DNA of 33,473 nucleotides from an uncultured Bacteroidales bacterium (GTDB lineage: Bacteria; Bacteroidota; Bacteroidia; Bacteroidales; FEN-979). The position numbers and the translations under genes were made by a program. Every line of letters starts with the position of its first letter. The stretch's first letter is position 1. This document shows, in pieces, positions 8,786-32,480 of this stretch. The stretch covers positions 1-33,473 of the forward strand of contig CAIMWF010000148.1 of assembly GCA_903845055.1 (NCBI GenBank). Direction: 5' to 3'. The notes below the pieces were generated by a model. The model did no database searches and was not told the origin of the DNA. It saw only the letters and a program-made list of their open reading frames with translations.

Positions 8786-8834
8786 CGATTGACGATTTAC
8801 GATTTACGAATGACGATTTACGAATGACGAATTA
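8786..8834. repeat. Heptamer array, seven units (CGATTTA/CGAATGA type)
   Basis: Seven consecutive 7-base words in register. The variants seen are CGATTTA, CGAATGA, CGATTGA and CGAATTA. The array fills nearly all of the gap between two minus-strand genes and overlaps the TAA stop of the radical SAM gene (8832-8834). Confidence 0.9.
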
Positions 8835-9611
8835 TTCGTAGACCTGGACGTTGAGGCCGGCATGGCGGATTTTGACCGCGATGGCATTCAGTTCGGCCAG
8901 GCCGATCTTTTCGAGGTTCTGCACAGGCGTTGCACGGGCAATGGGGTAGATCATGACGAGCGCGGGGCCGATCTCAAGCAATTGCCGAAGCCACTGCTGA
9001 ACCTCCGCTTCGGTGGTATTGTCGATGACTTCACCCTTCCATGTGCCCCGCAGGAACATGCTCTGGATGATCACCCTGCCGTTGAACCTTTTCAGCCCGC
9101 CGATCACCTCCGCGAAGGAGAGGTTCTCTTCCGGATTATTGATCAGTCCGAACATCTTTTCAGCCCCTGCATCCAGTTTCTGGATGTTGTTATCCAGTTT
9201 CAGAAGTGCTTCGAATACCCCCGGATCGCCAAGACGGCTCGCGTTTGAAAGAACCGTTACTTTTGCCCCGGGGAGATACCGGTCACGAAGGAGAATGGTA
9301 TCGTCGACGATGGCGGCAAATTCAGGGTGCAGCGTAGGCTCACCATTCCCTGCATAGGTAAGAGCGTCGGGAAGATAATCTTCGGCAACCAGTTCCTGCA
9401 GCCGTTGTTCAAGGAACCCGCTTACCTCCGCGCGGGAGGGGTAATCAGGCGGGCCGGGCGTATGCGGCGGCGTCCAACCACATTCGCAGTAGATGCAGTT
9501 GAAGGAACAATACTTCCTATTCAGGGGCAGCAGGTTGATCCCCAGCGACAATCCAAGCCTCCGGCTGCGCACCGGGCCAAACACAACTTCATGAAAAAGA
9601 AATCCGGCCAT
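8832..9611 (-). CDS. Radical SAM protein of the COG0731 type
   Basis: The 259-residue protein most likely starts at ATG 9611 (MAGFLF); a TTG three codons upstream is possible. It has FGPVRSRRLGLSLGINLLP followed by CSFNCIYCECG, the CxxxCxxC cluster that binds the [4Fe-4S] centre cleaving S-adenosylmethionine. GNGEPTLHPEF is the SAM-binding GGE-like motif. These features place it with COG0731 Fe-S oxidoreductases, relatives of the wyosine enzyme TYW1; bacterial members have no agreed function. It lacks the extra N-terminal flavodoxin domain of eukaryotic TYW1. It is divergent from the polyprenyl synthase gene with 86 bases between the starts. Confidence 0.88.
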   Translation of the reverse strand: MAGFLFHEVVFGPVRSRRLGLSLGINLLPLNRKYCSFNCIYCECGWTPPHTPGPPDYPSRAEVSGFLEQRLQELVAEDYLPDALTYAGNGEPTLHPEFAAIVDDTILLRDRYLPGAKVTVLSNASRLGDPGVFEALLKLDNNIQKLDAGAEKMFGLINNPEENLSFAEVIGGLKRFNGRVIIQSMFLRGTWKGEVIDNTTEAEVQQWLRQLLEIGPALVMIYPIARATPVQNLEKIGLAELNAIAVKIRHAGLNVQVYE

Positions 9612-9697
9612 ATTTTCCAATTAAGGTGCAAAATTCCGCATTTTCGTGGGCAAAACCTAAATTAGTCACGTTAAAAATACTTACTTTTACGGGTTAT

Positions 9698-10684
9698 ATG
9701 ATCCACCCGGTGATATCACTCGACGAAATAAAGGCCCCCATCAGGGAACACATCGAAGCTTTTGAAGACAAATTCAGGGCTTCCATGAAAAGTTCCGTGC
9801 CCCTGCTCGATACCATCACCCATTACATCATCAAGCGTAAGGGAAAGCAGATGAGGCCGATGTTCGTCTTCCTTTCGGCGGGACTTTGCGGCGTGGTGAA
9901 CGAGAGCACCTTCAGGGCCTCATCGCTGATCGAGCTGCTTCATACCGCCACACTGGTGCACGACGACGTGGTGGACGACTCCAACCTGCGGCGCGGTTTT
10001 TTTTCACTGAATGCGCTCTGGAAGAATAAAATCGCTGTCCTTGTTGGCGATTACCTGCTGTCGAGGGGATTGCTGCTGGCGCTTGAACAGGATGAGTTCC
10101 AACTCCTGAAGATCGTGTCGAACGCAGTTCGCGAAATGAGCGAAGGCGAATTGCTGCAGATTGAAAAGGCAAGGAAACTCGACATCCAGGAAAATGTCTA
10201 TTTCGAGATCATCCGCAAGAAGACCGCCACCCTCATCGCCTCCTGCTGTGCCTGCGGGGCCTCCTCGGTGGGTGTTTCAAGGGAAATGATCGATTCGATG
10301 TGGGCCTTTGGCGAGCATGTCGGCATCGCCTTCCAGATCAAGGACGACCTTTTCGACTACCAGCGCAGCAATGCCACCGGCAAACCGAACGGCACCGATA
10401 TCCGCGACCAGAAGATGACCCTTCCCCTGATCTACCTGCTGAACCATTCCGATTACATGGAAAAGCGCTGGATCATCAACACGGTAAAAAATCACCATGA
10501 CGATGCAGCGCAGGTGTCGAAACTGATCGGAAAGGTCGTCGAACGCGGCGGGATCGATTACGCAAATGAACAGATGCTTCAATACAGAGGCAAAGCGCTC
10601 GAGATCCTGGAAACCTTCCCCGCGAACAGTTACCGTACCTCGCTCGAACAGCTGGTACTCTTCACCACCGAGCGGAATACCTGA
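9698..10684 (+). CDS. Long-chain polyprenyl diphosphate synthase
   Basis: The 328-residue protein starts at ATG 9698 (MIHPVISL); the frame is open upstream but only with GTG. It is a trans-prenyltransferase extending allylic diphosphates with isopentenyl diphosphate. The first Asp-rich motif is HDDVVDDSNLRRG, the second is KDDLFDYQ, and KGKQMRPMFV supplies the substrate-binding Lys/Arg. Small residues before the first Asp motif and the length fit octaprenyl/heptaprenyl synthases (IspB/HepT group), which would make the menaquinone side chain; chain length cannot be fixed by eye. A TACTTTTA box lies eight bases before the ATG. It is convergent with the histidine kinase gene, 10 bases away. Confidence 0.92.
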   Translation: MIHPVISLDEIKAPIREHIEAFEDKFRASMKSSVPLLDTITHYIIKRKGKQMRPMFVFLSAGLCGVVNESTFRASSLIELLHTATLVHDDVVDDSNLRRGFFSLNALWKNKIAVLVGDYLLSRGLLLALEQDEFQLLKIVSNAVREMSEGELLQIEKARKLDIQENVYFEIIRKKTATLIASCCACGASSVGVSREMIDSMWAFGEHVGIAFQIKDDLFDYQRSNATGKPNGTDIRDQKMTLPLIYLLNHSDYMEKRWIINTVKNHHDDAAQVSKLIGKVVERGGIDYANEQMLQYRGKALEILETFPANSYRTSLEQLVLFTTERNT

Positions 10685-10694
10685 CCCGCCTGCC

Positions 10695-11753
10695 CTATGC
10701 TTTTTTAAGGGTGAAACCGAAGGTAGTGCCCACCCCGATCGTGCTGCGGACATTGACGGTCTGCATGTGGGCTTCGATGATGTGTTTGACGATGGCAAGT
10801 CCCAGCCCCTTCCCCTTGCGCGTGGCCACCCTGCCGCGTTCGGTGCGGTAAAATCGTTCGAAGACCCGCAGCAGGTCGCCGGGATCGATCCCGATACCGT
10901 TGTCCGTAATCTCGGTGAGAATGTGCTCGTCCAAGTCGAAAAAGCTGATCTTGGTCTTCCCGCCGTCGGGATTGCCATACCGGATCGAATTGTCGATGAT
11001 GTTGGTCAGTACCTGCCTGATTCGGTCCTTGTCGCCCTCTACCATGACCGGTTTTTCGGGATCGATTAAAAGGATGTAGATTTCATGCTTCTGCGCCTTC
11101 ATCTCCAGGAATTCAACCACCTCGCGTGTCAGGGCAACAAGGTCAAACCGGATTATGTTCAGCCGCAACTGTCCCGATTCAAGCTGCGAAATCTCATCGA
11201 GGTCGCCGATGATCTTGACCAGACGTTCGATGCTCTTCTCGGTACGCTTCAGGTATTCGCGGTTGATGGTGGGATCTTCGAGCCCTCCGTCGAGCAGGGT
11301 CGACACGTAGCCCTGGATGTTGAACAGGGGTGTTTTCAGTTCGTGCGACACGTTGCCGATGAATTCGCGGCGGTAGACTTCCAGCCGTTTCAGCTGTTCG
11401 ATCTCCAGTTCCTTCTCCTTCTCCCAGTTTTCGACCTCTGCCTGCACCTTGTCGATGAGGTTGCCGTCGGGGCGGATCTGGGCCTTGCCCTTCTTCCCAA
11501 CCTTCACCGAGTGGATCGATTTGTAGATCAGCCTGATTTTGTCGTAGATGAACTTTTCAAGCGTGTAGCGGAAGTTGAAGTAGGCTACCAGGAAGATGAC
11601 CATCGCACTGACCAACAGGGCCAGGAAAGTATAATAATGGGTAAAGGCATCGGAAAAGATGACCGTGACCGACAATACAAACAGCAGGATGTAGGAGACG
11701 GTGATGACAGCCGCGTTCAGGAACGCCAGGTTGCGGGGTTCGTAGAGTTTCAT
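10695..11753 (-). CDS. Sensor histidine kinase, PhoR-like
   Basis: The 352-residue kinase has two membrane helices at about 10-33 and 41-60 with a very short loop between them, so there is almost no periplasmic sensor. A coiled segment (about 100-125) leads into the dimerisation helix with H137 in FIGNVSHELKTPL. The ATPase domain shows N251/N255 (N box), DNGIGI (284-289, G1), ERFYRTE (F box) and GKGLGLAI (314-321, G2). Its ATG lies inside the stop of the response regulator (4-base overlap), so it is translated with it as a pair. The signal sensed is unknown; the short loop suggests sensing inside the membrane or through a partner, as in PhoR. Confidence 0.95.
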   Translation of the reverse strand: MKLYEPRNLAFLNAAVITVSYILLFVLSVTVIFSDAFTHYYTFLALLVSAMVIFLVAYFNFRYTLEKFIYDKIRLIYKSIHSVKVGKKGKAQIRPDGNLIDKVQAEVENWEKEKELEIEQLKRLEVYRREFIGNVSHELKTPLFNIQGYVSTLLDGGLEDPTINREYLKRTEKSIERLVKIIGDLDEISQLESGQLRLNIIRFDLVALTREVVEFLEMKAQKHEIYILLIDPEKPVMVEGDKDRIRQVLTNIIDNSIRYGNPDGGKTKISFFDLDEHILTEITDNGIGIDPGDLLRVFERFYRTERGRVATRKGKGLGLAIVKHIIEAHMQTVNVRSTIGVGTTFGFTLKKA

Positions 11754-12436
11754 GATTCATCGAATTTATAGCCGACCCCCTTGATGGTTTTGATGCTGTC
11801 GATGCCCAGCTTTTCACGGATGCGGCGGATGTGAACATCGATGGTACGGTCGCCCACCACGACATTCTCGCCCCAGACATTCGCGAAGATCTCCTCGCGG
11901 GTGACCACCTTGTCGGGCCGCGACACAAGGAATTGCAGCAGTTCGAACTCCTTGCGCACCAGTGTGTATTCCGATTCCCCGACGATGACCACGTACCGGT
12001 CCCTGTCGATGGTAAACCCCTTGAGGGTGATGATGCTGCCGTTGTCGGGAGCCTCCTTGTACCTGCGCAGCAGGGCCTGGACCCGGCTGAGGAACAGCTT
12101 CGGTTTGATGGGCTTGGCGATATAGTCGTCGGCACCGGCATCAAAACCGGCGATCTGCGAATAATCCTCTCCCCTGGCCGAAAGGAAGGCAATTACCGTG
12201 CCGGCCAGCTCAGGGATCTCCCTAAGTTTGGTGCAGGTTTCCATCCCGTCCATCCCGGGCATCATCACATCGAGGATCACCAGTTGAGGCTTGCCTTCCC
12301 GGGCAAGTTTCAGCGCCTTCTGGCCGTTTTTTGCCTTCAGCACGCGGTATCCCTCCTTTTCCAGGTTATACCCGAGAAATTCCAGAATGTCCGCCTCATC
12401 GTCGACCAGGAGGATCGTTATTTCGTTGTTTTCCAT
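11750..12436 (-). CDS. Response regulator, OmpR/PhoB family
   Basis: The 228-residue protein has a receiver domain with acidic residues at 12-13, phospho-acceptor D56 in LVILDVMMPGMDG, S86 in FLSARGE and K108 in AKPI. The C-terminal winged helix (about 133-226) includes EYTLVRKEFELLQFLVSRP and DVHIRRIREKLG then TIKGVGYKF, typical of PhoB-type regulators. It is the first gene of a two-gene operon with the kinase. It is not PorX, which carries an alkaline-phosphatase-like output domain. A TAACTTTA box (one mismatch to the -7 consensus) lies on the minus strand at 12447-12454. Confidence 0.95.
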   Translation of the reverse strand: MENNEITILLVDDEADILEFLGYNLEKEGYRVLKAKNGQKALKLAREGKPQLVILDVMMPGMDGMETCTKLREIPELAGTVIAFLSARGEDYSQIAGFDAGADDYIAKPIKPKLFLSRVQALLRRYKEAPDNGSIITLKGFTIDRDRYVVIVGESEYTLVRKEFELLQFLVSRPDKVVTREEIFANVWGENVVVGDRTIDVHIRRIREKLGIDSIKTIKGVGYKFDES

Positions 12437-12453
12437 AAAAACCAGTTAAAGTT

Positions 12454-12481
12454 ACGAATGACGAGTGTCGAGTGACGAGTA
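12454..12481. repeat. Heptamer array, four units (ACGAGTG type)
   Basis: Four 7-base words in register (ACGAATG, ACGAGTG, TCGAGTG, ACGAGTA), lying in the promoter region of the response regulator. It is nearly the reverse complement of the array at 12547-12581. Confidence 0.8.
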
Positions 12482-12546
12482 AAATTACTAATTAATAAAT
12501 ACTGATTACTTATAAATGTGTACCTTGATTTAAACCTGTCATGCGC

Positions 12547-12581
12547 CACTGGTCACTGGTCACTCGTCACTGGTCATTCGG
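12547..12581. repeat. Heptamer array, five units (CACTGGT type)
   Basis: Five 7-base words in register; variants CACTGGT, CACTCGT and CATTCGG. Its reverse complement matches the array at 12454-12481 with about three differences over 26 bases, so the two form an inverted repeat around some 65 bases of AT-rich DNA. Confidence 0.85.
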
Positions 12582-12677
12582 TTTTCCTTCGTAAAGGTAA
12601 TAAACTTCACAATTTTATCAGAACTTTCATGTTTGATAAGATCTTATGGCAAACATAACGGGTTGTTTTATACTTTT

Positions 12678-13316
12678 ATGAAAAATTTGTGGATGAAAAT
12701 AACCATCATCATCATGCTTTTCTGTCTGCCTCTGGCTGTTTTCGCGCAACGGTTCAACGGCGGGATGCTGGCCGGCGGGGTGGTGAGCCAGGTTGACGGG
12801 GACAATTACGGAGGTTACAACAAGTACGGCTTCCTGGGCGGGGGATTTGTCAGCCTGAAGGTCTCTCCGCATTCATCCTTCATGCTTGAGATGGAATACA
12901 TCCAGAAAGGGGCGCGGGTGAACGCCGATTCCATCACCAATACGGGCAATACCTACCTGACACGCCTGCATTACCTGGAAATCCCGCTGCTTTACCAGTA
13001 TACCTTTGCAAACCGGCTGCAGGTTGAAGTGGGTCCCGCCGTTGATGTTCTGCTCGGCACGCACGTGGAAATAAATGGTATTGAACCGCCCTATATCACC
13101 GTGCCATACCGTCCTGTCACCCTAAGCGGAATCGCAGGGTTTTCCTGTTTTATCACCGATCATCTGAAAGCAGGGCTTCGCGCCAATTATTCGCTGCTCT
13201 CCATCCGGTCAGCAGGGTATGTATACGGGCAACGAAAAATATTATTTGAGGCAGGACAGTACAACAATGTGCTTTCGCTGGCACTGAGCTGGTATTTCAA
13301 ACCGAGGGACCACTGA
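12678..13316 (+). CDS. Outer-membrane beta-barrel protein, PorT-like
   Basis: From ATG 12678 the protein has 212 residues; an earlier TTG (12633) is unlikely, and ATG 12693 is a possible alternative. A signal peptide ends near FAQ. The mature part alternates Gly/aromatic-rich strands (YGFLGGGFVSLKVSP, SSFMLEMEYIQKGARV, LHYLEIPLLYQYTFANRLQV, VEVGPAVDVLL) and ends in a strand with aromatic residues, the pattern of the small PorT-type barrels found in Bacteroidota. No specific role can be read. Its stop overlaps the start of ubiX by one base, so the two are co-translated. Confidence 0.82.
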   Translation: MKNLWMKITIIIMLFCLPLAVFAQRFNGGMLAGGVVSQVDGDNYGGYNKYGFLGGGFVSLKVSPHSSFMLEMEYIQKGARVNADSITNTGNTYLTRLHYLEIPLLYQYTFANRLQVEVGPAVDVLLGTHVEINGIEPPYITVPYRPVTLSGIAGFSCFITDHLKAGLRANYSLLSIRSAGYVYGQRKILFEAGQYNNVLSLALSWYFKPRDH

Positions 13317-13894
13317 TGAAAAAACACAGGCTGATCATCGCGATAACCGGGGCAAGCGGCGCCATTTACGGCAAACTGCTGCTGGAGCGTCTCGCCGGTC
13401 TCGGCGACCAGATACAGGCCTGCGGCGTGATCTTTTCCGACAATGCCCGCGCAGTGTGGCGGTATGAGCTGGGAATGGAACCCGACCTCCCTGCGGCCTC
13501 CGGCGGCGACCGGATGACGCTCTATGCCGCCGGCGATTTTTTCGCCCCCATGGCATCCGGTTCATCGGGTTACGATGCCATGATCATATGCCCCTGTACC
13601 ATGGGTACGATGGGCAGGATCGCTTCGGGCGTCTCTTCCGACCTGATCACGCGGGCGGCCGATGTCATGCTGAAGGAGCGGAAAAAACTCATCCTGGTCC
13701 CCCGGGAAGCCCCTTACAGCCTGATCCACCTGCGCAACATGACCCTGCTCACCGAAGCTGGCGCCATCGTTTGCCCCGCCTCCCCTTCTTTTTACAGCAG
13801 GCCCGCCACCATCGAAGCGCTCGTCATGACTGTGACCGACCGGGTGCTGGCGCTGGCGGGAATTGAGCTGGAAAGCTACCGGTGGGGAGGGTGA
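13316..13894 (+). CDS. ubiX: Flavin prenyltransferase UbiX
   Basis: The 192-residue protein makes prenylated FMN, the cofactor of UbiD-type decarboxylases, from FMN and dimethylallyl phosphate. It shows the N-terminal phosphate-binding turn ITGASGAIYG, then MIICPCTMGTMGRIASGVSSD, the RAADVMLKERKKLILVPRE block and SFYSRPATI, in the order and at the length expected of UbiX. Its start codon shares a base with the stop of the upstream barrel gene. No ubiD is present in the window. The downstream gap holds two heptamer arrays. Confidence 0.93.
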   Translation: MKKHRLIIAITGASGAIYGKLLLERLAGLGDQIQACGVIFSDNARAVWRYELGMEPDLPAASGGDRMTLYAAGDFFAPMASGSSGYDAMIICPCTMGTMGRIASGVSSDLITRAADVMLKERKKLILVPREAPYSLIHLRNMTLLTEAGAIVCPASPSFYSRPATIEALVMTVTDRVLALAGIELESYRWGG

Positions 13895-13944
13895 ACAGTC
13901 GAAAAGACGATCAACGATTTTTGAAGTTCGAAGTCATTGCCAAA

Positions 13945-13972
13945 GGCAATGGAAGACTGGCAATAGGCAATA
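13945..13972. repeat. Heptamer array (GGCAATA type)
   Basis: Four 7-base steps: GGCAATG, a diverged unit, then two GGCAATA. It lies 50 bases after the ubiX stop. Confidence 0.65.
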
Positions 13973-14007
13973 AGGAATTGATAACGGGTAACAAGCCTGC
14001 TTCCTAT

Positions 14008-14035
14008 AAATCGTAAATCGTAAATCGTAAATATG
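14008..14035. repeat. Heptamer array (AAATCGT type)
   Basis: Three perfect AAATCGT units and a diverged fourth. The reverse complement is ACGATTT, the same word as at 8786, 18354 and 26411. It sits just downstream of the queG stop (14049). Confidence 0.85.
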
Positions 14036-14048
14036 TGCAACCTGCTCC

Positions 14049-14960: not shown

Positions 14961-14970
14961 CTGGTAAACC

Positions 14971-15113
14971 TTTGAATGAATAACGAATATTGATCAACGA
15001 AGTTTGAAATCAGCATGATTGGGTTTAACCGGCATGTGTTGTTCAAACCTTAACGTTGGCTGTCCTTACAGTTCAAACTTCGAACTTCGTTGATCAATAT
15101 TCGATATTCAAAA
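14971..15113. repeat. Long inverted repeat between ruvB and queG
   Basis: Arms at 14971-15008 and 15072-15113 flank about 63 bases. They share a perfect 21-base core (14984-15004 and its complement) and further imperfect pairing outward. The arms step in sevens (units such as CGAAGTT, CGAATAT and TGATCAA), so this is probably a heptamer array copied in inverse. The right arm covers the last codons and stop of ruvB. Confidence 0.88.
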
Positions 15114-16130: not shown

Positions 16131-16135
16131 ATATG

Positions 16136-16143
16136 CAAAAGTA
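16136..16143 (-). promoter_or_regulatory. -7 box TACTTTTG for ruvB, possible leaderless start
   Basis: The minus strand reads TACTTTTG, an exact TAnnTTTG, with five bases to the ATG at 16130. Transcription would begin at or very near the start codon. Confidence 0.5.
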
Positions 16144-16216
16144 AATTATTTTCATAAATTTAATTTGTAAATAAATTTTGCTATTTTTACGTTATCTTTC
16201 ATAAACCTGCCTCATC

Positions 16217-17493: not shown

Positions 17494-17504
17494 ATTGCCT
17501 GGAT

Positions 17505-18356
17505 ATGAATAAGATAATTGTTGCCATCGATTTTTCGGAATGCTCCATCAATGCTTTTCTGCATGCCTTTACCATTGCCGAACACTGCGATGGTGAACTG
17601 ATCCTGCTCTGGGTCGAAAAGGCAAACGGGGAGAAAGAAAAATATGTGGCCCAGTCCGGCGATTCAGTGAAGGACGTTCAAACCGCCTTTGAATATCTGA
17701 TCGCGAAATACCAGCCCGCTCATCCCGGCGTGAAAATTTCATGGAAAATCCGTAAGGGCAAGATCTACAAGGAGGTTACAGAAGAAGCAAGGCTCCAGAA
17801 GGCGATGATGATCGTCACAGGCACCCACGGGGCTTCAGGATTCGAAGAGTTCTGGATTGGCAGCAATGCAAACAAGATCGTCACGGCAAGCACCTGCCCG
17901 GTGCTCACCATCCGCGGGGGAATCAACATCGCGCGGCCGCTGACCCGGATCGTGCTGCCGATCGACAGCGCCGAGGAGACACGGCAGAAAGCCTCTTTCA
18001 CCGGGTTCATCGCCAAAAGGCACCAGGCCGAGATTTTCGTGCTGAAATTATACACTTCCAAGATCAAGGCGATGCGGCATCATGTCGACCTCTACGCCCT
18101 GCAGGTCACGCGCCACTTCGAGGAGGAGAAGATTAAATTCCAGGTCGGTTTCATGGAATGCGAGAATATCTCGGATGCCACCATCGAATATGCCAGGACG
18201 GTCGACGCAAACCTCATTTCAGTGATGACCGAACAGGAGACCACCACCGCCAACATTTTCCTGGGCCCTTACGCGCACCAGATCGTAAACCACTCCCCCA
18301 TCCCCGTGCTCAGCATACACCCGAAGGATACGCAGGCGACGGGACAGGGGTTTTGA
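17505..18356 (+). CDS. Tandem-domain universal stress protein (second copy)
   Basis: This 283-residue paralogue of the protein at 16217 has the same two-domain plan. The first domain has G-x2-G-x9-GS (G106, G109, G119, S120) within TGTHGASGFEEFWIGSN; the second lacks it but keeps MTEQET and VNHSPIPVLSIHP. The shared EEYWIG/EEFWIGSN and MTEQET segments show that the two genes arose by duplication. It is the last gene of the set. The TGA stop is also the first three bases of a heptamer array. Confidence 0.93.
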   Translation: MNKIIVAIDFSECSINAFLHAFTIAEHCDGELILLWVEKANGEKEKYVAQSGDSVKDVQTAFEYLIAKYQPAHPGVKISWKIRKGKIYKEVTEEARLQKAMMIVTGTHGASGFEEFWIGSNANKIVTASTCPVLTIRGGINIARPLTRIVLPIDSAEETRQKASFTGFIAKRHQAEIFVLKLYTSKIKAMRHHVDLYALQVTRHFEEEKIKFQVGFMECENISDATIEYARTVDANLISVMTEQETTTANIFLGPYAHQIVNHSPIPVLSIHPKDTQATGQGF

Positions 18357-18409
18357 TTTACGATTTACGATTTACGATTTGGAGTGACCTGTGACCAGTG
18401 ACGAATGAC
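18354..18409. repeat. Heptamer array, eight units, two word families joined
   Basis: Eight 7-base units in register, beginning with the TGA stop of the stress-protein gene. The first four are CGATTTA-type (TGATTTA, CGATTTA, CGATTTG); the last four are GTGAC-type (GAGTGAC, CTGTGAC, CAGTGAC, GAATGAC). It separates convergent genes. Confidence 0.92.
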
Positions 18410-23628: not shown

Positions 23629-23681
23629 TTCCCTGAAGGGGATTTGATTGTCAGGATGTCTGGCGACCGGTTACCCGCAGG

Positions 23682-23699: not shown

Positions 23700-23807
23700 G
23701 CTACCGTCATCCGCCGATCATGTCGCAGGATAAACAGTGCAAAAAGGGATCATGTCAGGATAATTTTTGAAAATCTTTCGTACCTTGTACTGCCAATCCC
23801 CCGGCTT

Positions 23808-25898
23808 ATGAGAACCTCCCTGGTTGTTCTGTGCCTTTTCCTGCAATTTGCCTGTTTCTCCCAGTGGAACTGGGTCAACCCGCTGCCGCAGGGCAACACC
23901 CTGCACGACGTGCAGTTTGTCAACGCCACCACCGGCATTGCGGTGGGCGACTGCGGAACCATCCTACGGACCACCGACAGCGGAGCCAGTTGGACCACGG
24001 TCGTGGACGACCCGTCGGTCGGTGGATTAAATGCTGTCTCTTTCCCCGACCCGGACACAGGGTTTGCCATCTCCGATGGCGGATCATACTTATACAAGAC
24101 CACCGACGGGGGGCTGACCTGGTCGTTCCTTTACTCCTTCGATACCTTCAACATGTGGGATGTATGGTTCACGGATGCCCTGCACGGGACTGCCATCGGG
24201 GATGAATGCGTTTTCCTCACCTCCGACGGGGGCGTTCACTGGGCCTGGAAAGGGCCTTATACCTGGAACTATTCGATCTGGTATACCTCGCCTTCAACGG
24301 CAATCATGACCTGCCAGTCGTCGCTGTACAAAAGCTATGACGGCGGGAATACCTGGACGGTCAAAATCCAGAATTTTAATGGCTGGCAGGGCTCCCTTTT
24401 CTTCATGAATGCCGATACCGGCCTTTATGTAGGGATGGGCGGGATGATCTGCCGCACCACCGACGGGGGTGAACACTGGTCCACCGGGCCTATCCTGACA
24501 ACAAAGACGCTCTCCGCGGCCTGCATCCTGCAGTCGGGGAAGGGTTTCATCGTCGGCGGTTCGGGGAAGATGCTAAAAACCGACGACTTCGGGGTTTCAT
24601 GGTATACCCTGCCGGCCCTTACCGATCACGACCTGGAGACCGTCACCTTTTCCGATCAGCTGCATGGCGTCATTATGGGAAAGCAGGGAATCATCTTCAA
24701 TACCGTTGACGGCGGGAACAGCTGGACGAACCTCACCGCTTCGGTTACCAGGAAACAACTGAACGCCGTTGTATTCAGCGACCCGAACACCGGCTATATC
24801 GCGGGCGACAGCGCCACCCTGCTGAAAACGGTCAACGGGGGCGGCACCTGGCAGCCGGTGGCAATCCCCGGGGGAACGGACTTCAAGGCACTTTGCTTTA
24901 CGGGTGTCCAGACGGGTTATGTAGCCGGATCAAACGGAACCGTATGGAAAACGCTGGATGGTGGTGGCACCTGGACTCCATTACAGGTCAGCAGCCATGA
25001 CCCGGATGCCATCGAATTTCCGGACGCCTTCACCGGGTATGTGCTGACAGGCGGTACGAACCTCGATGATTCCATCATCCTGTACCGGACAACCAACGCC
25101 GGGTCCTCCTGGGTAAAGCGTTACCTTGGGCTGGGTTATGACTGCTTCATGGATTTTACAAGCCCAGATACCGGTTATCTTGCTGCAAACAACAATATCA
25201 GGAAAACAACCGACGGTGGAAATACATGGACCGTGCTGGCTACATTCCAGGTGCAGGGCTTCGGCGACCTTTGCTTTTCATCAAAAACAACGGGATTTGC
25301 CTGTGCCATGGATGCCTACGGCAACGGTATAAATTACAAAACGACCGACGCGGGGCTGCATTGGGAGCCGTTCTATGCAGGACCCGTATTTTTCAGCAGG
25401 ATGCACTTTGCCGATTCTCAGAACGGGTACGCCATGACCAGGGGTGACCTGGGGAATGTCAGCATGTATAAAACAGTGAATGGAGGCCTTTCCTGGAGCC
25501 AGAAGGAGGTGGGAATGACCTGTTACCTGCTCCGGGATTTCTGCTTCAACGGTTCGGGTACCGGGATCCTTGCCGGGGATTGTGGCGTGATCCTGAGGAC
25601 CACCAACAGCGGCGGGATCGTCACCGGCGTTCAACCAGCGATCGGGCCGAATGAGATCGTCATCTCCCCGAACCCCTGCCGCGACCGGTTCCGGATTCAA
25701 TTTCCGGATGCGGAGCATTCGGTCGATGTATCCATTTATTCAATGCTCGGGAAGGAGGTGTTTTCATCGGGTTACAGCCGGGTTCAGTCCATAGATGTCA
25801 ATGTTTCCTCCCTGCATGCGGGCACCTGGCTGGTGCGCATCACGACCGGGTCGGAAGTCACGGTGAGAAAGCTGGTGAAAACGAATGAACAGGAGTGA
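23808..25898 (+). CDS. T9SS-secreted Ycf48-like beta-propeller protein
   Basis: The 696-residue protein has a signal peptide (cleavage near CFSQ, residue 19). About thirteen Asp-box motifs of the form TTDGGxTW or VNGGxTW follow through residue ~600, each with a preceding GxAVGD-like strand, as in Ycf48/BNR propellers; this many implies two propellers or an enlarged one. Residues about 615-696 are a T9SS type A sorting domain: ISPNPCRDRF, VSIYSMLGKEV, LHAGTWLVRI, then VRKLVK. It should be exported by T9SS and attached to, or released from, the cell surface. The ligand is unknown. Confidence 0.9.
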   Translation: MRTSLVVLCLFLQFACFSQWNWVNPLPQGNTLHDVQFVNATTGIAVGDCGTILRTTDSGASWTTVVDDPSVGGLNAVSFPDPDTGFAISDGGSYLYKTTDGGLTWSFLYSFDTFNMWDVWFTDALHGTAIGDECVFLTSDGGVHWAWKGPYTWNYSIWYTSPSTAIMTCQSSLYKSYDGGNTWTVKIQNFNGWQGSLFFMNADTGLYVGMGGMICRTTDGGEHWSTGPILTTKTLSAACILQSGKGFIVGGSGKMLKTDDFGVSWYTLPALTDHDLETVTFSDQLHGVIMGKQGIIFNTVDGGNSWTNLTASVTRKQLNAVVFSDPNTGYIAGDSATLLKTVNGGGTWQPVAIPGGTDFKALCFTGVQTGYVAGSNGTVWKTLDGGGTWTPLQVSSHDPDAIEFPDAFTGYVLTGGTNLDDSIILYRTTNAGSSWVKRYLGLGYDCFMDFTSPDTGYLAANNNIRKTTDGGNTWTVLATFQVQGFGDLCFSSKTTGFACAMDAYGNGINYKTTDAGLHWEPFYAGPVFFSRMHFADSQNGYAMTRGDLGNVSMYKTVNGGLSWSQKEVGMTCYLLRDFCFNGSGTGILAGDCGVILRTTNSGGIVTGVQPAIGPNEIVISPNPCRDRFRIQFPDAEHSVDVSIYSMLGKEVFSSGYSRVQSIDVNVSSLHAGTWLVRITTGSEVTVRKLVKTNEQE

Positions 25899-25934
25899 AA
25901 ACAACATCCGGTAGGGTGAACACAACTGCAAAGT

Positions 25935-25955
25935 AATTAAAAATTAAAAATTACT
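25935..25955. repeat. Heptamer array, three units (AATTAAA type)
   Basis: AATTAAA twice, then AATTACT, 36 bases after the propeller stop. Confidence 0.55.
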
Positions 25956-26040
25956 TTTTGACAGGGAGCCGTCCGGTCTGCAAAAGACCTCTCCTTGCTT
26001 GCGGGAAGACGTTTTTTACCGGCTGGCCGGCGATCCCTGA

Positions 26041-26061
26041 AATCGTTAATCGTAAATAAAA
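26041..26061. repeat. Heptamer array, three units (AATCGTA type)
   Basis: AATCGTT, AATCGTA and AATAAAA in register; same word class as 14008. Confidence 0.5.
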
Positions 26062-26129
26062 AAATGCTGGCGAAGCACAGGAACCGCATGAGGAAATTCA
26101 CGTGAAGAAAATCAAGGAATGAGCGTTAA

Positions 26130-26175
26130 AAACTGCGGACTGTTTGAGGCGCGCAGCGCCGAGTTTCCGCAGTTT
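26130..26175. repeat. Nested hairpin with 10-bp outer and 5-bp inner stems
   Basis: AAACTGCGGA at 26130-26139 pairs perfectly with TCCGCAGTTT at 26166-26175. Inside, GGCGC (26148-26152) pairs with GCGCC (26156-26160) around a 3-base loop. Confidence 0.8.
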
Positions 26176-26227
26176 AGCGATTGACGCGGATTTTTAGTGA
26201 ATTTTCGTAAGCGGTGATTTTTCTTTG

Positions 26228-26260
26228 TTTCTTTCTTTTGATGGCAGCAAAAGAAAGAAA
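26228..26260. repeat. 13-bp perfect inverted repeat
   Basis: TTTCTTTCTTTTG and its exact complement flank a 7-base loop. It is not followed by a clean T-run typical of a terminator on either strand. Confidence 0.85.
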
Positions 26261-26410
26261 GGCAATATGACAAAACGAAGCGTTTAGGGCTAAAGCCCAG
26301 GGTAACTCCGGCCTGCTCACCCCCCGGCTAAAGCCGGAGGCAATTGATTTTCCCGCAGGCGGGAAGAGATTTTGTGCCGGCCGGTGGGCTGCTATTGCCT
26401 GTTGTCTTTT

Positions 26411-26445
26411 TGATTTACGATTTACGAATGACGATTTACGATTGA
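26411..26445. repeat. Heptamer array, five units (CGATTTA type)
   Basis: Variants TGATTTA, CGATTTA, CGAATGA and CGATTGA in register; the same words as at 8786 and 18354. Confidence 0.9.
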
Positions 26446-26477
26446 AGGGGTAGCCGGCCATGGGATTCTCACAAATG

Positions 26478-26509
26478 CCATTTTGCCATTTTACCATTTT
26501 ACCATTTTA
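26478..26509. repeat. Octamer array across the stop codon of the GH16-like gene
   Basis: Four 8-base units: CCATTTTG once and CCATTTTA three times. On the minus strand the copies inside the gene encode its last residues (KMVKW) and the stop; the others continue past it. Confidence 0.85.
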
Positions 26510-27843: not shown

Positions 27844-27849
27844 ACCCTT

Positions 27850-27857
27850 CAAATGTA
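27850..27857 (-). promoter_or_regulatory. -7 box TACATTTG for the GH16-like gene, possible leaderless start
   Basis: The minus strand reads TACATTTG, an exact TAnnTTTG, six bases before the ATG at 27843. This also supports ATG 27843 over the TTG at 27852. Confidence 0.5.
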
Positions 27858-27883
27858 AGGAAGAATGGGGGAAATTAAGATTG

Positions 27884-27911
27884 ACCTGGCATTTGACACC
27901 TGGCCCCTGGT
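27884..27911. repeat. Weak heptamer array (ACCTGGC type)
   Basis: ACCTGGC twice with ATTTGAC between and CCCTGGT after, in register, just beyond the stop of the sialidase-like gene (27913). Confidence 0.4.
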
Positions 27912-27912
27912 G

Positions 27913-29343
27913 TTACCCGGAAATGATTATTTTACATTTCATGATGACTCCGTGCCCCGTTGTTACCTGCAAATAATAGATTCCGCCTGGTAAATTATTT
28001 CTTTCCAGGATCATCCTGTTACCGGTCACAATTTGTGTTTTAACCACCTGTCCCCAAATATTATAAATTCTCAAACAGGCGTTTTGAAGTTCTTTTTGAA
28101 ATTCGATGGTCGCCGATATATCAAACGGATCAGGATAAACGTTCATGGAATCCGGCAATTCTATCCCCGGAATACCCGTTGTCGCAAGGCAATGCCGGCC
28201 GTTGTTACCTGTCGGATTGCGCATATAATGAACATGATGATCCGTATTGCTTGCATAAATAATATGAACTGCACAGCCTGAAATTGCTGTAAAAGCTGTG
28301 ATCCCGATGTTCCCGGGGAAAAATGTAAAAGGAGCGTCCCAGTTTGTTCCACCGTCGCCGGAGTGCAGGTATTGACCACCAATGAATGCTTTTACGTATG
28401 TCAAATGCAGGTCGGAACCATCCCTGACCATATACGGGTAATAAAAAGTTGTATCCGGGTCATTGGTCAGATTCTTGTCCGTTCCCCAGGTTAAACCGTT
28501 GTCTCCGCTTTGAACGATATGAACCTGGTAATGTGTTGTGGGAGCCCCGGCATAAGCAACATCGACATTTGAGCTATCCGCGCTTACCATTGTTCCGTAA
28601 CCATAAGGAGGGGATATTGTATCATCAGAACTCCATGTTATCCCGTAATCAGGTGAGGATTTATAGAATATCTGCATTTTATTGTTATACCGGTTGTCAT
28701 TCCAGACCATGTGTATATGAGGTCCCTGGGCCGTGATGGCTTCATCTTCCGATCGGCCCGAGGCATACGTAATTTGCTGGTGTGGACTCCATGTCGTTCC
28801 GTTATCGGCTGATCTCAGGAAAAAGATTTCCGTATTGTAAGGCGATTGGGAAGTCACAATGTCATTTGCCACATAAACGCTGTTACCCGATGCCGTGACA
28901 GCGGGCCAGTTTGCAATTACAGAATCCAGCATGACGCCGGGGCCCCATGTACTGCCTCCATCCAGGGAATGCCTGTAATGGGATGACCGGTGATTGTCAA
29001 CGGTATCAATTTCCCTCCATACAACATGTACCCGGGAGCCACTGACGGAAATCGCAGGATTCCAGGCATTTCCGTTGATCCCTGTTATTGGAATGGGAGC
29101 AGTCCAGGTTAACCCCGTATCCGCAGACATTGTGTAATATAAAGCGCCTTTCTTTGCGCTGAACCGATCGCACCATACTACATGGATCGTGTCACCACTG
29201 ACTCCTATGCATGATCCCATGCTTTCATTCAGTAAAGCGGAAACTGCCCCGGGAGAGATATCCGCAGGACTGCTCCATTGGGCAAGTGCAGCAAACCGGA
29301 TGAACCCCGTGAAAACAAGTGCTAAAAGTATTCTTGTCCGCAT
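27913..29343 (-). CDS. T9SS-secreted sialidase-fold (BNR/Asp-box) propeller protein
   Basis: The 476-residue protein has a signal peptide ending near ALAQ (residue 22). Six Asp boxes occur at regular spacing (SADTGLTW, SLDGGSTW, SADNGTTW, SPDYGITW, SGDNGLTW, SGDGGTNW), one per blade of a six-bladed sialidase-like propeller, and each is preceded by an IHVVW-type strand. The catalytic Arg triad and Tyr of true sialidases could not be assigned, so binding rather than cleavage is as likely. Residues about 400-476 form a T9SS sorting domain (NVYPDPFDIS, LRIYNIWGQVV, LPGGIYYLQV). A -7 box lies at 29372. It is downstream of the 29-residue-repeat gene on the same strand, with 189 bases between. Confidence 0.88.
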   Translation of the reverse strand: MRTRILLALVFTGFIRFAALAQWSSPADISPGAVSALLNESMGSCIGVSGDTIHVVWCDRFSAKKGALYYTMSADTGLTWTAPIPITGINGNAWNPAISVSGSRVHVVWREIDTVDNHRSSHYRHSLDGGSTWGPGVMLDSVIANWPAVTASGNSVYVANDIVTSQSPYNTEIFFLRSADNGTTWSPHQQITYASGRSEDEAITAQGPHIHMVWNDNRYNNKMQIFYKSSPDYGITWSSDDTISPPYGYGTMVSADSSNVDVAYAGAPTTHYQVHIVQSGDNGLTWGTDKNLTNDPDTTFYYPYMVRDGSDLHLTYVKAFIGGQYLHSGDGGTNWDAPFTFFPGNIGITAFTAISGCAVHIIYASNTDHHVHYMRNPTGNNGRHCLATTGIPGIELPDSMNVYPDPFDISATIEFQKELQNACLRIYNIWGQVVKTQIVTGNRMILERNNLPGGIYYLQVTTGHGVIMKCKIIISG

Positions 29344-29371
29344 TTTGTTTAGGTATTATGTCTGCAAACCC

Positions 29372-29379
29372 CAAATTTA
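29372..29379 (-). promoter_or_regulatory. -7 box TAAATTTG for the sialidase-like gene
   Basis: The minus strand reads TAAATTTG, an exact TAnnTTTG, 28 bases before the ATG at 29343, so this gene probably has its own promoter. Confidence 0.5.
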
Positions 29380-29532
29380 CACTTTTTTACCCATAAAACA
29401 TAGATCATTATCGTACCATCAATGTTGGCCAATACAGGCCGGTTCACACCGGTCCATTCCGGTCAGCATGACATTTTCCGCACAAAGTAAAGTTGGTCCG
29501 AACAAGACTTGGAGAAAGAGGCACCGCAAACG

Positions 29533-31011
29533 TTACTCCTTCACAAAATGGACCGACTCTTTCAAATCAGTGGCGGAAAGTACCAGTACATAGGTTCCCC
29601 TGGCCAGCCGGCTGATGTCGACCTCCGTATTGTTACTGCTGACGGTTCGGCGCAACATAAGCCTGCCGCGGGAATCGTAAACGGAGAGCGCGCAAACTGC
29701 GCCCGGGTTGAAATTGCGCACCGATACGACCATCCTGTCGGAGGCGGGATCGGGACAGACAGCCAGGTCACGGCTGATCCTGCCGCTGCCGGGCAACCCC
29801 GAACTGACAAACGAAACGAAACTTGCTTCATACCTGTATAATACCGAAAACGCCCCGATGGTCTTTTTCTGCGAATACATCCACAGCGAGCCGATGGCAT
29901 GCTGCCACGCCCCGTTCCTCCATTGTTCGTATTTCCCGGTTACCGAATTACCCGCGGCATCGTACGTATAAACGTAGCGCGATGAATTCACCCACCCGGT
30001 TGTTTGCCACAGTTGCCATGTTTCACTCAGCATATCCCCGGCCGCGTCGAAGGTATGGGTGATGAGGTAATTATTCACCCAGGCGTTCGACTGCCACATC
30101 TCATCCTGCGAGGTGAGCATGTTCCCGGCTGAGTCGTAGGTATAGAGCAGGCGCCAGTAGTTCTCCCAGGCGCCCGAGACCCATTGCTGGTTTGTTTCGG
30201 TCAGCATGTTCCCGGCCGTGTTGTATGTGTAACTCGTGATAAACTGGTTCTGCAGGACACCTCCCTGCCACATCTGGTAAAGCATGGTCAGCAGGTTGTT
30301 GTTTGCATCGTAGGTGTCGGTGTAGATGTCCGCTGCAATCCAGCCGTTGTTCACCCAATGCTGCTTTTCATCGGTAAGGTTGTTGCCGTTGGCATCATAG
30401 GTGAGCAGGTATTGATCGGAGTTCACCCATGCGCCTGTCTGCCAGTATTCATCCAGTTCCGTCAGCATGTTCCCGCCTGCATCGTAGGTGTAGGAATACC
30501 TGAAGTTGTTGGTCCATGCCCCCGCCTGCCATTGTTCCACGGTCTCCGTGAGGTTAAGCCCGGCGGCATTGTAGGTGTATGTATACCTCCAGTTGTTGAC
30601 CCAGGCGTTGTTTTGCCACAGCTGATTCACATCGGTCAGCAGGTTCCCCGCGGCATCATAGGTGCCGGCATCCCTCATGTAATTCACCCACAATCCTGCC
30701 TGCCAGTTCTCAATAAGCATCGTCAGCAGGTTCCCATGAATATCGAAGGTGGCCGATTGCCGTTCGACGACCCCGGAGGTGTCGTAGGTGATGACTGTGT
30801 CCCATTTCCAGAGAAGCGTGGCGGGGTTAATCCGGCCCGGATTTTGGGAATAGCCGTTGAAATGCACACCGGGTGCGGCATGTGTTGCGGTCAGCATTGC
30901 CAGGTGGCCGGCGGATTTCCGGGAGAAGGAATGCCCACCCTGTCTATCGCTTGCAACGGCAGAAAAGGTTACGAGGATCAGGACAATAAAAAGCAGCAGG
31001 TTTTTTTTCAT
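29533..31011 (-). CDS. T9SS-secreted protein with ten 29-residue YD-like repeats
   Basis: The 492-residue protein has a signal peptide (cleavage near AVAS, residue 21). Residues 88-377 are ten repeats of exactly 29 residues with no gaps. The consensus begins TYDAAGNxLT, has a central W (position 16), then GAW (19-21) and ends in aromatic residues. The opening resembles RHS/YD repeats, but the unit is longer and has the extra W strand, so a beta-hairpin stack is likely. Residues about 410-492 form a T9SS sorting domain (AVCPDPASDRM, LSVYDSRGRLML, LARGTYVLVL, HFVKE). There is no RHS core or toxin end. It is probably a surface adhesin or binding protein; function unknown. Confidence 0.85.
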   Translation of the reverse strand: MKKNLLLFIVLILVTFSAVASDRQGGHSFSRKSAGHLAMLTATHAAPGVHFNGYSQNPGRINPATLLWKWDTVITYDTSGVVERQSATFDIHGNLLTMLIENWQAGLWVNYMRDAGTYDAAGNLLTDVNQLWQNNAWVNNWRYTYTYNAAGLNLTETVEQWQAGAWTNNFRYSYTYDAGGNMLTELDEYWQTGAWVNSDQYLLTYDANGNNLTDEKQHWVNNGWIAADIYTDTYDANNNLLTMLYQMWQGGVLQNQFITSYTYNTAGNMLTETNQQWVSGAWENYWRLLYTYDSAGNMLTSQDEMWQSNAWVNNYLITHTFDAAGDMLSETWQLWQTTGWVNSSRYVYTYDAAGNSVTGKYEQWRNGAWQHAIGSLWMYSQKKTIGAFSVLYRYEASFVSFVSSGLPGSGRISRDLAVCPDPASDRMVVSVRNFNPGAVCALSVYDSRGRLMLRRTVSSNNTEVDISRLARGTYVLVLSATDLKESVHFVKE

Positions 31012-31108
31012 GGTATTAAGATTTGGCGGCCAGGAGGCCTGTTCAGAATCGGGGGGGATATGCGGGCGATCAAATCATTAAATTGAAGCCGGATTGATAA
31101 ATAAAAAA

Positions 31109-31143
31109 GGCAACAGGCAACTGGCAACAGGCAACAGGCAATT
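31109..31143. repeat. Heptamer array, five units (GGCAACA type)
   Basis: Variants GGCAACA, GGCAACT and GGCAATT in register; related to 13945 and 32397. Confidence 0.9.
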
Positions 31144-31174
31144 AAAAGCGGGAAGCACGCCTGATGACCTTAAT

Positions 31175-31202
31175 TTAGTAATTAGTAATCAGTAATTAGT
31201 AA
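31175..31202. repeat. Heptamer array, four units (TTAGTAA type)
   Basis: TTAGTAA three times and TCAGTAA once, in register, 32 bases after the GGCAACA array. Confidence 0.88.
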
Positions 31203-31328
31203 TTTCCCGGGTAACGGTATTTTAAAAATGAAGAAAGTATTCACCGCAAATATAACCTTGAAACCCGTCAAAAAATAAATATTTTTCATTTTACTGCAAT
31301 AAATAGGAACGATCGCGTCTACAACATC

Positions 31329-31880
31329 ATGGAAAAGGAATTTCAGAAAAGGTCGCTCGACCGGTTTTTCAGGGTGGAATACCAGAAACTGGTGAATTAT
31401 GTCAGGAAGAACCTGGAAGACCGCTTTTTTGAAGCCTCGCCCGAAGACATCGTGCAGGATGTGGCCCTGGGGCTGATCGACCGGCTGGATCTCGACGCCC
31501 AGATCGGCAACCTGACAGCCTATCTCTACCGGTCGGTGAAGAACAGGATCATCGACCTGCAGAAAAAGCCCCTGCGGAATGTGTCGATTGAGCATTACAC
31601 GGATAAAAAAAATGAGAATTATTTACTAAATACCCTTGCAGATGAAACCCTAAAAGATGAACCAAATTGGCCTGACATCGCCCCGGAGCGGCTGCAGCAG
31701 GCCCTGTCGGAGCTGCGGCCCGACGAACAGGCCCTGATCATCGCCACGGAGTTCGACCATCAGAGCTATGAAGAGCTCTCCGAAAGCTGGGATGTGCCGG
31801 TGGGGACCCTGCTTTCGCGCAAACACCGGGCGCTTTCGAAATTACACCGGAAATTGTCTGAGAACCGGTCATTGACCTGA
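31329..31880 (+). CDS. ECF-type sigma70-family RNA polymerase sigma factor
   Basis: The 183-residue protein has sigma region 2 (about 10-80), with ASPEDIVQDVALGLIDRL and LTAYLYRSVKNRIIDLQ, and region 4 (about 122-176), with ALSELRPDEQALIIATEFDH, YEELSESWDVPVGTLLSR and a basic recognition helix. Regions 1 and 3 are missing, as in ECF factors. The linker (83-120) is acidic and AT-rich in codons. No classical anti-sigma gene follows; the next gene encodes a small two-helix membrane protein that may do that job. Target promoters are unknown. Confidence 0.9.
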   Translation: MEKEFQKRSLDRFFRVEYQKLVNYVRKNLEDRFFEASPEDIVQDVALGLIDRLDLDAQIGNLTAYLYRSVKNRIIDLQKKPLRNVSIEHYTDKKNENYLLNTLADETLKDEPNWPDIAPERLQQALSELRPDEQALIIATEFDHQSYEELSESWDVPVGTLLSRKHRALSKLHRKLSENRSLT

Positions 31881-31895
31881 CCGTAACCGCAACTT

Positions 31896-31930
31896 AAAAT
31901 TCAAAACTCAAAACATAAAAATCAACCATC
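31896..31930. repeat. Heptamer array, five units (AAAACTC type)
   Basis: AAAATTC, AAAACTC, AAAACAT, AAAAATC and AACCATC follow one another in register, filling most of the gap between the sigma factor and the membrane-protein gene. Confidence 0.65.
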
Positions 31931-31948
31931 ATTTAATAAATTACAATT

Positions 31949-32383
31949 ATGGAAACTTCAGAAAACAGATATCAGCACAAACGCTTTTTCGGGAACCGCC
32001 GGCACCGGGCCGGGTGGGTATTCCTCGGCATCATCGGTTTTACAGCCCTGGCCCTGTTGTTCGGACTGGTGGTCCTGTCCCTTTGGAACTGGCTCATGCC
32101 CGTCATCTTCCACCTTGGGGTAATCACCTATTGGCAGGCCATTGGCCTTGCGATCCTCGGGCGGCTGCTTTTTGGCGGCATGCACCATGGCGGACCACAC
32201 CGGCATATGGAACGCAGGTCGGGGCCATGGAACCACATGCGCGGCATGCATGGCCGCAAGGATTGCCGCGACCATGACTACGGTATGAAATGGAGCCACT
32301 ACGACCGTTACTGGGAAGAGGAGGGCGAAAAGAACTTCAACGATTACCTTGAACGCAATCGGCGGAAGCCGGTCGGAGAATAA
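31949..32383 (+). CDS. Small two-helix membrane protein with His/Met-rich tail
   Basis: The 144-residue protein has a basic N-terminus, helix 1 at about 22-50 ending in SLWNWLMP, and helix 2 at about 52-77 with ITYWQAIGLAILGRLLFGG. I recall the pattern LWNWLMP...ITYWQALGL in small proteins next to ECF sigma genes in other bacteria. Residues 78-118 hold eight His (79, 80, 84, 86, 96, 101, 109, 117), several Met and one Cys (106), which could bind a metal. The positive charge on both ends suggests a hairpin with both ends in the cytoplasm. It is 68 bases downstream of the sigma gene and probably in its operon. An anti-sigma or metal-sensing role is inference. Confidence 0.78.
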   Translation: METSENRYQHKRFFGNRRHRAGWVFLGIIGFTALALLFGLVVLSLWNWLMPVIFHLGVITYWQAIGLAILGRLLFGGMHHGGPHRHMERRSGPWNHMRGMHGRKDCRDHDYGMKWSHYDRYWEEEGEKNFNDYLERNRRKPVGE

Positions 32384-32396
32384 GACGGGGGTAATA

Positions 32397-32440
32397 AGGC
32401 AATAGGCAATAGGCAGTAGGCAATAGTGGCAGGCAGCAGG
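32397..32440. repeat. Heptamer array, about six units (AGGCAAT type)
   Basis: AGGCAAT repeated with AGGCAGT and AGGCAGC variants; register slips by one base at 32425-32430. It begins 14 bases after a stop codon. Confidence 0.85.
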
Positions 32441-32459
32441 CCGGCTCACCATCAAAAAG

Positions 32460-32480
32460 TAATTATTAATTATTAATTTT
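32460..32480. repeat. Heptamer array, three units (TAATTAT type)
   Basis: TAATTAT twice, then TAATTTT, just downstream of the Rieske gene stop. Confidence 0.6.

Follow-up and report, generated by a model that had tools for sequence, protein, structure and literature searches.

The gaps between genes in a 33,473-nucleotide (nt) stretch of DNA from an uncultured Bacteroidales bacterium (contig CAIMWF010000148.1 of GenBank assembly GCA_903845055.1; "the window" hereafter means this whole stretch) hold short tandem arrays built of 7- and 8-base words, which resemble the short tandemly repeated repetitive (STRR) sequences, the degenerate heptads of heterocystous cyanobacteria. A few such words per genome are common to unlinked gaps, and congeners amplify other words and fill the same gap differently. 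The arrays crowd gene edges and there run outward from the gene, and neighbours within one gap tend to face each other across 18-34 nt with unrelated words. As a tentative explanation, which the evidence favours without making it secure, breaks in a gap could be patched by extending the strands that leave the genes on word templates elsewhere in the genome, together with slippage by 7 or 8 nt.

Arrays within one genome

Eleven period-7 segments in the window reached a score of at least 11, compared with a mean of 0.017 and a maximum of 1 in 60 block shuffles, while other periods gave one such segment (period 8) or none (periods 4-6 and 9-12). The original prediction, made by reading the sequence, had reported heptamer arrays in these gaps at 17 coordinates, and such arrays are real. 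Lag 7 outscored lags 5, 6, 8, 9 and 10 at 17/17 of these coordinates, and 15/17 had the lowest P value that 500 local shuffles allow (P 0.002, uncorrected and for sites chosen by the reader), with weaker values at 14971 (P 0.030) and 27884 (P 0.016), likewise uncorrected. Six of the 17 sites (13945, 14971, 15072, 26041, 27884 and 31896) fell outside the 11 segments.

The source genome (G000; 3.95 Mb in 175 contigs, 95% complete) was sampled as the window plus 20 further stretches, altogether 432,772 bases, taken from contigs on the hit list of a search for CGATTTACGATTTA, and genes were called with a crude caller of our own that misses some genes (e.g., 27913-29343 in the window). At scores of at least 14, this sample contained 39 segments of period 7 and 20 of period 8, together with 22 of period 14 and 4 of period 21, compared with 1 of period 6, 2 of period 9 and none of periods 2-5, 10-13 and 15. 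After a single block shuffle these bases held no segment of any period. The lag-7 excess predicted genome-wide (39 segments vs 0) was therefore found. The strict 7-base period that had been claimed was not upheld, since octamers are about half as numerous as heptamers and one occurs in the window itself (26476-26509), so that unit length is not 7 only. For lags 6, 7, 8 and 9, autocorrelation between the crudely called genes was 0.274, 0.296, 0.291 and 0.281, respectively, and coding DNA defined by the same calls had no lag-7 peak. The 81 arrays in 433 kb correspond to ~740 per genome, a density that may be too high because the contigs were picked from the word-hit list; positions and orientations are less affected.

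Unlinked arrays share their words, as had also been predicted: CGATTTACGATTTA, allowing at most one mismatch, occurred at 98 + 120 places in the genome and its reversed control at none. Among 115 period-7 segments (score at least 12), 26 locally repeated necklaces were found, with AAATCGT (equivalent to GATTTAC) in 39 segments and ACGAGTG in 19; 46 period-8 segments at the same score gave 13 necklaces, with ACCTCGCT (GGTAGCGA) in 17. The main words GATTTAC, GAGTGAC, AATTAAA and GGTAGCGA, as read by eye, are free of GGG. An order of words, GGTAGCGA before AATAGCGA, was suggested by a first listing and rejected on whole-genome counts (24 vs 18 in G000, 48 vs 57 in its congener G009).

Arrays avoid genes except at stop codons, in line with the prediction: 167/184 arrays in 831,279 bases lay outside called genes, and overlap with stop codons was seen. 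Sixty of 151 arrays lay within 7 nt of a gene, compared with 22.8 under random placement (maximum 37 over 500). For arrays of the three word families used to score polarity, the ratio of outward to inward orientation within 12 nt of a gene was 28:3 for the GATTTAC family, 14:1 for GGTAGCGA and 4:0 for GGCAAY. Hence the claim that words recur in either orientation holds for their recurrence at unlinked sites, but orientation is not arbitrary and follows the gene edge when a gene is near. Scored by G-C skew, with ties excluded from the ratios, the G-rich strand ran outward at 3' ends in 43 vs 10 cases in G000 (10 ties) and 37 vs 14 in other genomes (7 ties; P 0.0018), while non-array DNA showed no such bias at 3' ends (80 vs 101). 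Stop codons were rejected as the cause of polarity, as 10 GATTTAC arrays near 3' ends run outward with that strand stop-free (our own count).

Divergent gaps had the smallest array share (2.7% in G000, 0.5% elsewhere), and convergent gaps had the largest share in G000 (15.8%). When two arrays labelled by family shared a gap (n=19), 16 pairs faced each other, 3 pointed the same way and none diverged, and 15 of the 16 facing pairs were in tandem gaps; by G-C skew (n=54), 19 pairs faced and 12 pointed the same way. The families of neighbours were independent (10/54 pairs of the same family, 8.25 expected). In contrast, the spacer was constrained, with 18-34 nt in 18/36 two-array gaps vs 5.6 expected (maximum 12 over 500). 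Comparison of array-masked gaps gave no common core in the spacers, and a shared spacer motif was rejected, as only a weak excess of TAGCCGG was present.

A fixed polarity and a preferred spacer, together with the rarity of arrays in divergent gaps, might also mean that the arrays are selected elements (binding sites, RNA 3'-end or terminator elements, or gene-border insulators) whose recognition differs by species. Regulator binding has been proposed for the paired octamer and heptamer sites of Geobacter metallireducens, in the part of that work available to us (PMC2700814). Hairpins in G431, a genome from another order of the same class, point the same way. In that genome 10/19 GATTTAC places were listed, which are covered by six fetched sites (L328-L333), and all six carry facing GATTTAC-type arms forming a hairpin, with folding energies of -39 to -93 kcal/mol at the five sites folded. 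Three sites have identical arms (GATTTAC GATGTAC GATTTAC) with different loops. Several hairpins lie between convergent stop codons, and at L330 (TGA/TGA) and L329 (TGA/TAG) the arms span exactly between the stops of the convergent frames, resembling the window array at 18355 that begins in the TGA of a Usp-family gene; L332, within a 997-codon open frame, is an exception to gene avoidance. In G431, however, the same words stand on both arms, while in G000 the words mostly differ. The 41 facing pairs folded in G000 paired no better than shuffled partners (mean -7.4 vs -8.3 kcal/mol, although a few single pairs were strong), so that hairpin selection was not supported for this genome. The many words used at once in one genome, the spacers free of a common core, and gaps that in congeners are empty or hold other words also argue against selected elements. 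We consider this explanation unlikely, although it keeps an appreciable share of the probability because of the G431 hairpins.

Word sets and turnover among relatives

At least 10 places matching CGATTTACGATTTA (at most one mismatch) were present in 33/37 genomes of the family (range 1-648) and in 1/24 genomes from the order's other families (range 0-13), while the reversed control gave 0 to 6 per strand. The word sets differ between congeners: GGTAACAR pairs numbered 381 in G017, 356 in G008, 114 in G003, 110 in G018, 25 in G009 and 5 in G000, while GGTAGCGA pairs numbered 236 in G009, 144 in G000 and 26 in G007, with none in 8/19 genomes including G008. As a separate observation, CGATTTACGATTTA in G007 was more frequent on the forward (266) than on the reverse strand (167) of the deposited contigs, an imbalance that most congeners do not show.

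Orthologous gaps show the turnover directly. The gap of the array at 8786 was located in 17 genomes of the genus, the source genome included; it was 4-25 bp long and arrayless in 7/17, longer without a marked array in 2/17, and array-bearing in 8/17, with GGCAGTA, CACTTGT, TCGTCAC, AAATCGT, GATTTAC or octamers according to species. At a second gap the upstream gene ended with GGTAA or GGTAG in all 14 genomes having the gap, and the arrays continued in phase, with GGTAACAG in G008 and GGTAGCGA in G007 and G009, which are members of each genome's word set. Since orthologous gaps are filled with genome-specific words, the words must originate outside the locus. Over 86 kb of alignment at 94.5% identity, G006 and G011 differed in most of the words of two array-bearing gaps, which broke the alignment. 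No target-site duplication was noticed in the orthologous-gap or G006/G011 comparisons, which were too divergent or too few for this purpose.

Independent local slippage, in which each array would arise by tandem duplication of the sequence at its own site with a preferred slip of 7-8 nt, is consistent with the period fixed at 7-8, with the presence of the multiples 14, 16 and 21, and with the changes of unit between G006 and G011. Nevertheless, the same words at many unlinked gaps, the different words of congeners and the genome-specific words at orthologous gaps contradict it as the sole cause, which agrees with the prediction that local slippage would not be sufficient, and we regard it as very improbable in that role. 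Slippage probably sets array length, and a reflection of polymerase contact in the 7-nt unit is an idea of Mrazek (2007), as cited in the available parts of PMC4679880 and PMC4692102.

The arrays might instead be the termini of a transposase-moved element related to miniature inverted-repeat transposable elements (MITEs) or repetitive extragenic palindromic (REP) sequences. Their dispersal, the species-specific bursts, the inverted pairs and the three G431 sites that combine the same arms with different loops could all be produced in this way. A single mobile core was rejected, however, as none was common to the array-masked gaps, whose 36 matches seem to come from tRNA genes, from repeats of other kinds or from short stretches of similarity, and neighbouring arrays come from independent families. 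A search of G000 (95% complete) for Y1_Tnp and RVT_1 gave no match at E 1e-6 (other transposases were not searched), so that dependence on a reverse transcriptase (RT) or a REP-associated tyrosine transposase (RAYT), neither family being matched, was likewise rejected. A mobile element is thus a rather improbable source.

More distant relatives also bear arrays. Period-7 or period-8 arrays were found in 11/71 named Bacteroidota loci (1.27 Mb), which held 11 segments of period 7, 8 of period 8, 5 of period 9, and 0-2 each of periods 4-6, 10-13 and 15. GATTTAC triplets (at most one mismatch) occurred in 18/395 Bacteroidota genomes, the source genome included, and exact triplets in 26 stretches of a viral collection with GC contents of 0.47-0.67, some near-identical to one another. 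Of the 81 loci in that collection (L247-L327), L247-L272 were read (245 kb), with segment counts of 77 for period 7, 7 for period 10 and 4 for period 8. Triplets of other words were present in 23 (GAATGAC), 18 (GGCAATA) and 0 (GGTAGCGA) viral-collection stretches. Because permuted control heptamers also yield 8, 5 and 2 stretches, GATTTAC was rejected as a word favoured across phyla, the preference being modest at most.

Such occurrences would be expected if arrays or words spread between species by horizontal transfer, as MacGregor (2015) argued for TAACTGA in the portion of the paper available (PMC4679880). The reversed control, however, also matches 4 Bacteroidota genomes by our own count, the permuted heptamers leave room for chance or convergence, and several of the 26 stretches are near-identical copies, so that import seems quite improbable as the general explanation.

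The window and its dispersed repeats

The features of the window are collected in Table 1. Comparison of the window and its genes with Pfam, PHROG and Rfam gave ordinary genes and one tRNA. Judged by the ribonucleotide reductase gene (5706-8381), its closest named relatives are genomes from metagenomes that carry the label Bacteroidales or Bacteroidetes.

Table 1. Arrays and array-like sites of the window (a dot marks rows with no strand assigned; TRF, Tandem Repeats Finder)
Feature	Position	Strand	Remark
Period-7 array, CGATTTA/CGAATGA	8786-8832	+	Fills 48-nt gap between two minus-strand genes
Period-7 array, GAATGAC/GAGTGAC	12454-12480	+	17 nt upstream of response-regulator gene start (minus strand)
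Period-7 array, CACTGGT (reverse complement ACCAGTG)	12547-12576	.	Divergent gap shared with 12454 array
Weak, two GGCAATA words and a decayed third	13945-13964	+	Under array threshold
Listed part at the predicted 14008 site	14007-14032	-	
Gap with the predicted arms 14971 and 15072	14961-15107	.	Inverted repeat, weak heptad register, under array threshold
Period-7 array, GATTTAC x3.7	18355-18380	+	Starts within TGA stop of Usp-family gene 17505-18356, outward
Period-7 array, AATTAAA	25935-25953	.	
Weak, ATCGTTA/ATCGTAA words	26041-26058	.	Under array threshold
Period-7 array, GATTTAC/GAATGAC	26412-26443	+	
Period-8 array, TGCCATTT, TACCATTT	26476-26509	.	Overlaps 3' end of minus-strand gene beginning at 26491
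Weak, CCTGGCA-like words	27884-27912	.	Short gap, local P 0.016
Period-7 array, GGCAACA	31108-31141	+	
Period-7 array, TTAGTAA	31175-31204	.	33 nt past GGCAACA array, one divergent gap
Weak period-7 array, AACTCAA/AATTCAA	31891-31925	.	TRF call, under our own threshold
Period-7 array, GGCAATA	32397-32426	+	Outward, 13 nt past gene end
Period-7 array, TAATTAT/TAATTTT	32460-32486	.	4 nt from end of convergent gene; 33-nt spacer to GGCAATA array

Other repeats share the intergenic space of this genome. Window positions 25899-26490 hold a dispersed repeat unrelated to the arrays, with copies at L042 2163-2680 (93% identity over 207 nt) and L157 18967-19741 (81% over 104 nt), and pieces of the inverted repeat in the gap at 14961-15107 recur in the L042 and L157 gaps bearing these copies. 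A second dispersed intergenic family of ~330-370 nt occurs at L166 4413-5459 and 11995-12758, L168 6373-6735 and L042 12182-12934, three of the copies being 91-94% identical and the fourth matching them at 78-80%. The protein encoded at 23808-25898 in the window is YCF48/BNR-like and carries a Por secretion tail; it has 42 matches in its own genome and belongs to a large paralogous family found in congeners too.

Known repeat systems and a possible origin of the arrays

The STRR resemblance drawn by the original prediction is supported by tandem 7-base units beyond chance and by the same words at many intergenic sites. In the narrow sense, however, STRR sequences are cyanobacterial, and the nearest named relatives here are Bacteroidales. 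Another class of short, dispersed, intergenic and often inverted repeats is formed by REPINs and other repeats linked to Y1 transposases. The arrays share these four traits, but neither a common palindromic core nor a Y1_Tnp match was found in G000.

Comparison with published systems, as described in the available parts of the sources, places the arrays among several relatives in form. The original prediction named cyanobacterial STRR sequences as the closest described case, but heptamer arrays had already been published on a small scale for five Bacteroidetes: MacGregor (2015) described TAACTGA arrays in these and in Beggiatoaceae and Cyanobacteria, which likewise are intergenic and present or absent at the same gap between relatives, but use one word and in the Guaymas filament lie mostly forward and directly upstream of start codons (PMC4679880). 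Rehm et al. (2015) reported GGGAATC and GGGGA(C/T)T heptamer repeats in Xanthomonas and Nostoc that lie upstream of genes on the non-coding strand and downstream on the coding strand, i.e., outward (PMC4692102). These too are dispersed between genes, near gene edges, overlap stop codons, are few between divergent genes, and vary in length and sequence among relatives (PMC4692102). They consist of one G-rich word capable of forming a quadruplex with a preference for four units, unlike the many words mostly without G-tracts, the octamers, the facing pairs of independent words and the gaps empty in relatives seen here. In Geobacter metallireducens, short 7- and 8-base arrays also occur mostly as opposite-strand pairs at variable distance, but with three to five units and a class-specific consensus common to both members (PMC2700814), while the two sides of a pair in G000 usually carry unrelated words. 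The TDNGATT/NNTGAGT heptads of Nostoc trnL introns are similarly degenerate and undergo whole-region swaps between word classes, and TACGATT, which occurs in the GATTTAC necklace, conforms to TDNGATT; those heptads form an intron stem-loop (PMC4476775), whereas the present arrays occupy many gaps in another phylum and include octamers. No paper joining these repeat systems was found in searches of an open-licence library.

Outward polarity (Xanthomonas and Nostoc, PMC4692102) and paired opposite-strand sites (Geobacter, PMC2700814) have thus already been published. New here are the octamer class, the small genome-specific word sets, the turnover at orthologous gaps, and the facing pairs, whose words are independent and whose spacer has a preferred length. 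The interpretation offered by the original prediction was supported in part, but it missed the octamers, the outward direction of arrays near genes, the differences in word sets between species and the turnover at orthologous gaps.

How patching from the gene-leaving strands might proceed can be outlined as follows. When DNA in a gap breaks or its replication stalls, repair would extend the 3' end of the strand leaving each gene. This end could be captured on an array elsewhere in the genome through a few bases of homology, often a stop codon, and would copy its words while slipping by 7 or 8 bases, adding units and thereby setting the length. The extended end would then be joined to the other end, leaving a spacer between them. 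Patches that damage genes would be removed by selection, which may be why arrays begin at gene edges and why divergent (promoter) gaps tolerate the fewest. Arrays could be kept without any function being needed, and single arrays may be co-opted. The same polarity at 5' and 3' edges makes such a DNA-level reading, with the strand leaving by its 3' end extended, the easiest one, and independent words, short unique spacers and starts at gene edges would be consistent with separate extension of the two ends before their joining. Rehm et al. describe Xanthomonas and Nostoc arrays that obey the same outward rule although built of different words (PMC4692102, as far as available), which is also in favour of patching. 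So are the stop codons found in phase with the array in 19/67 and 19/58 arrays near 3' ends (two counts).

Several observations weigh against this reading. Beyond 12 nt from a gene, the polarity of the three families pooled was weak (27 outward vs 17). Non-array DNA had the same G-C bias at 5' ends (225 vs 98), so that selection may explain part of the 5' polarity. By skew, 4/54 neighbour pairs diverged and 19/54 were tied. The in-phase stop codons follow by construction for arrays that overlap the end of the gene. Other genomes lack the excess of arrays that G000 has in convergent gaps (3.0% vs 7.1% in tandem gaps), and some arrays persist, as 7/19 array segments of G011 were kept within the blocks aligned with G006, with units changed. 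The TAACTGA sample of Microcystis, 6 forward and 8 reverse to the start codon in the available text (PMC4679880), misfits a single rule. No capture, copying or joining event was seen in progress, and the choice of 7 and 8 is left unexplained.

More broadly, and as a speculation we hold to be improbable, a common DNA-level activity in several phyla could write oriented 7- and 8-base arrays outward onto broken or stalled ends with species-specific words. This end-patching would be somewhat like telomere healing in its effect and would require no reverse transcriptase of the RVT_1 type and no Y1 transposase.

In the parts available, each published study of heptamer arrays deals with a single word or a handful of words, and none gives a tested mechanism. 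The present genus brings together a large number of words, two unit lengths, a single rule of polarity and turnover, and has array-rich and array-poor congeners side by side, so that the cause is testable by strain comparison. If the patch reading is true, repair, and not gene regulation, would largely shape the intergenic space of these bacteria, and the array words would record past breaks.

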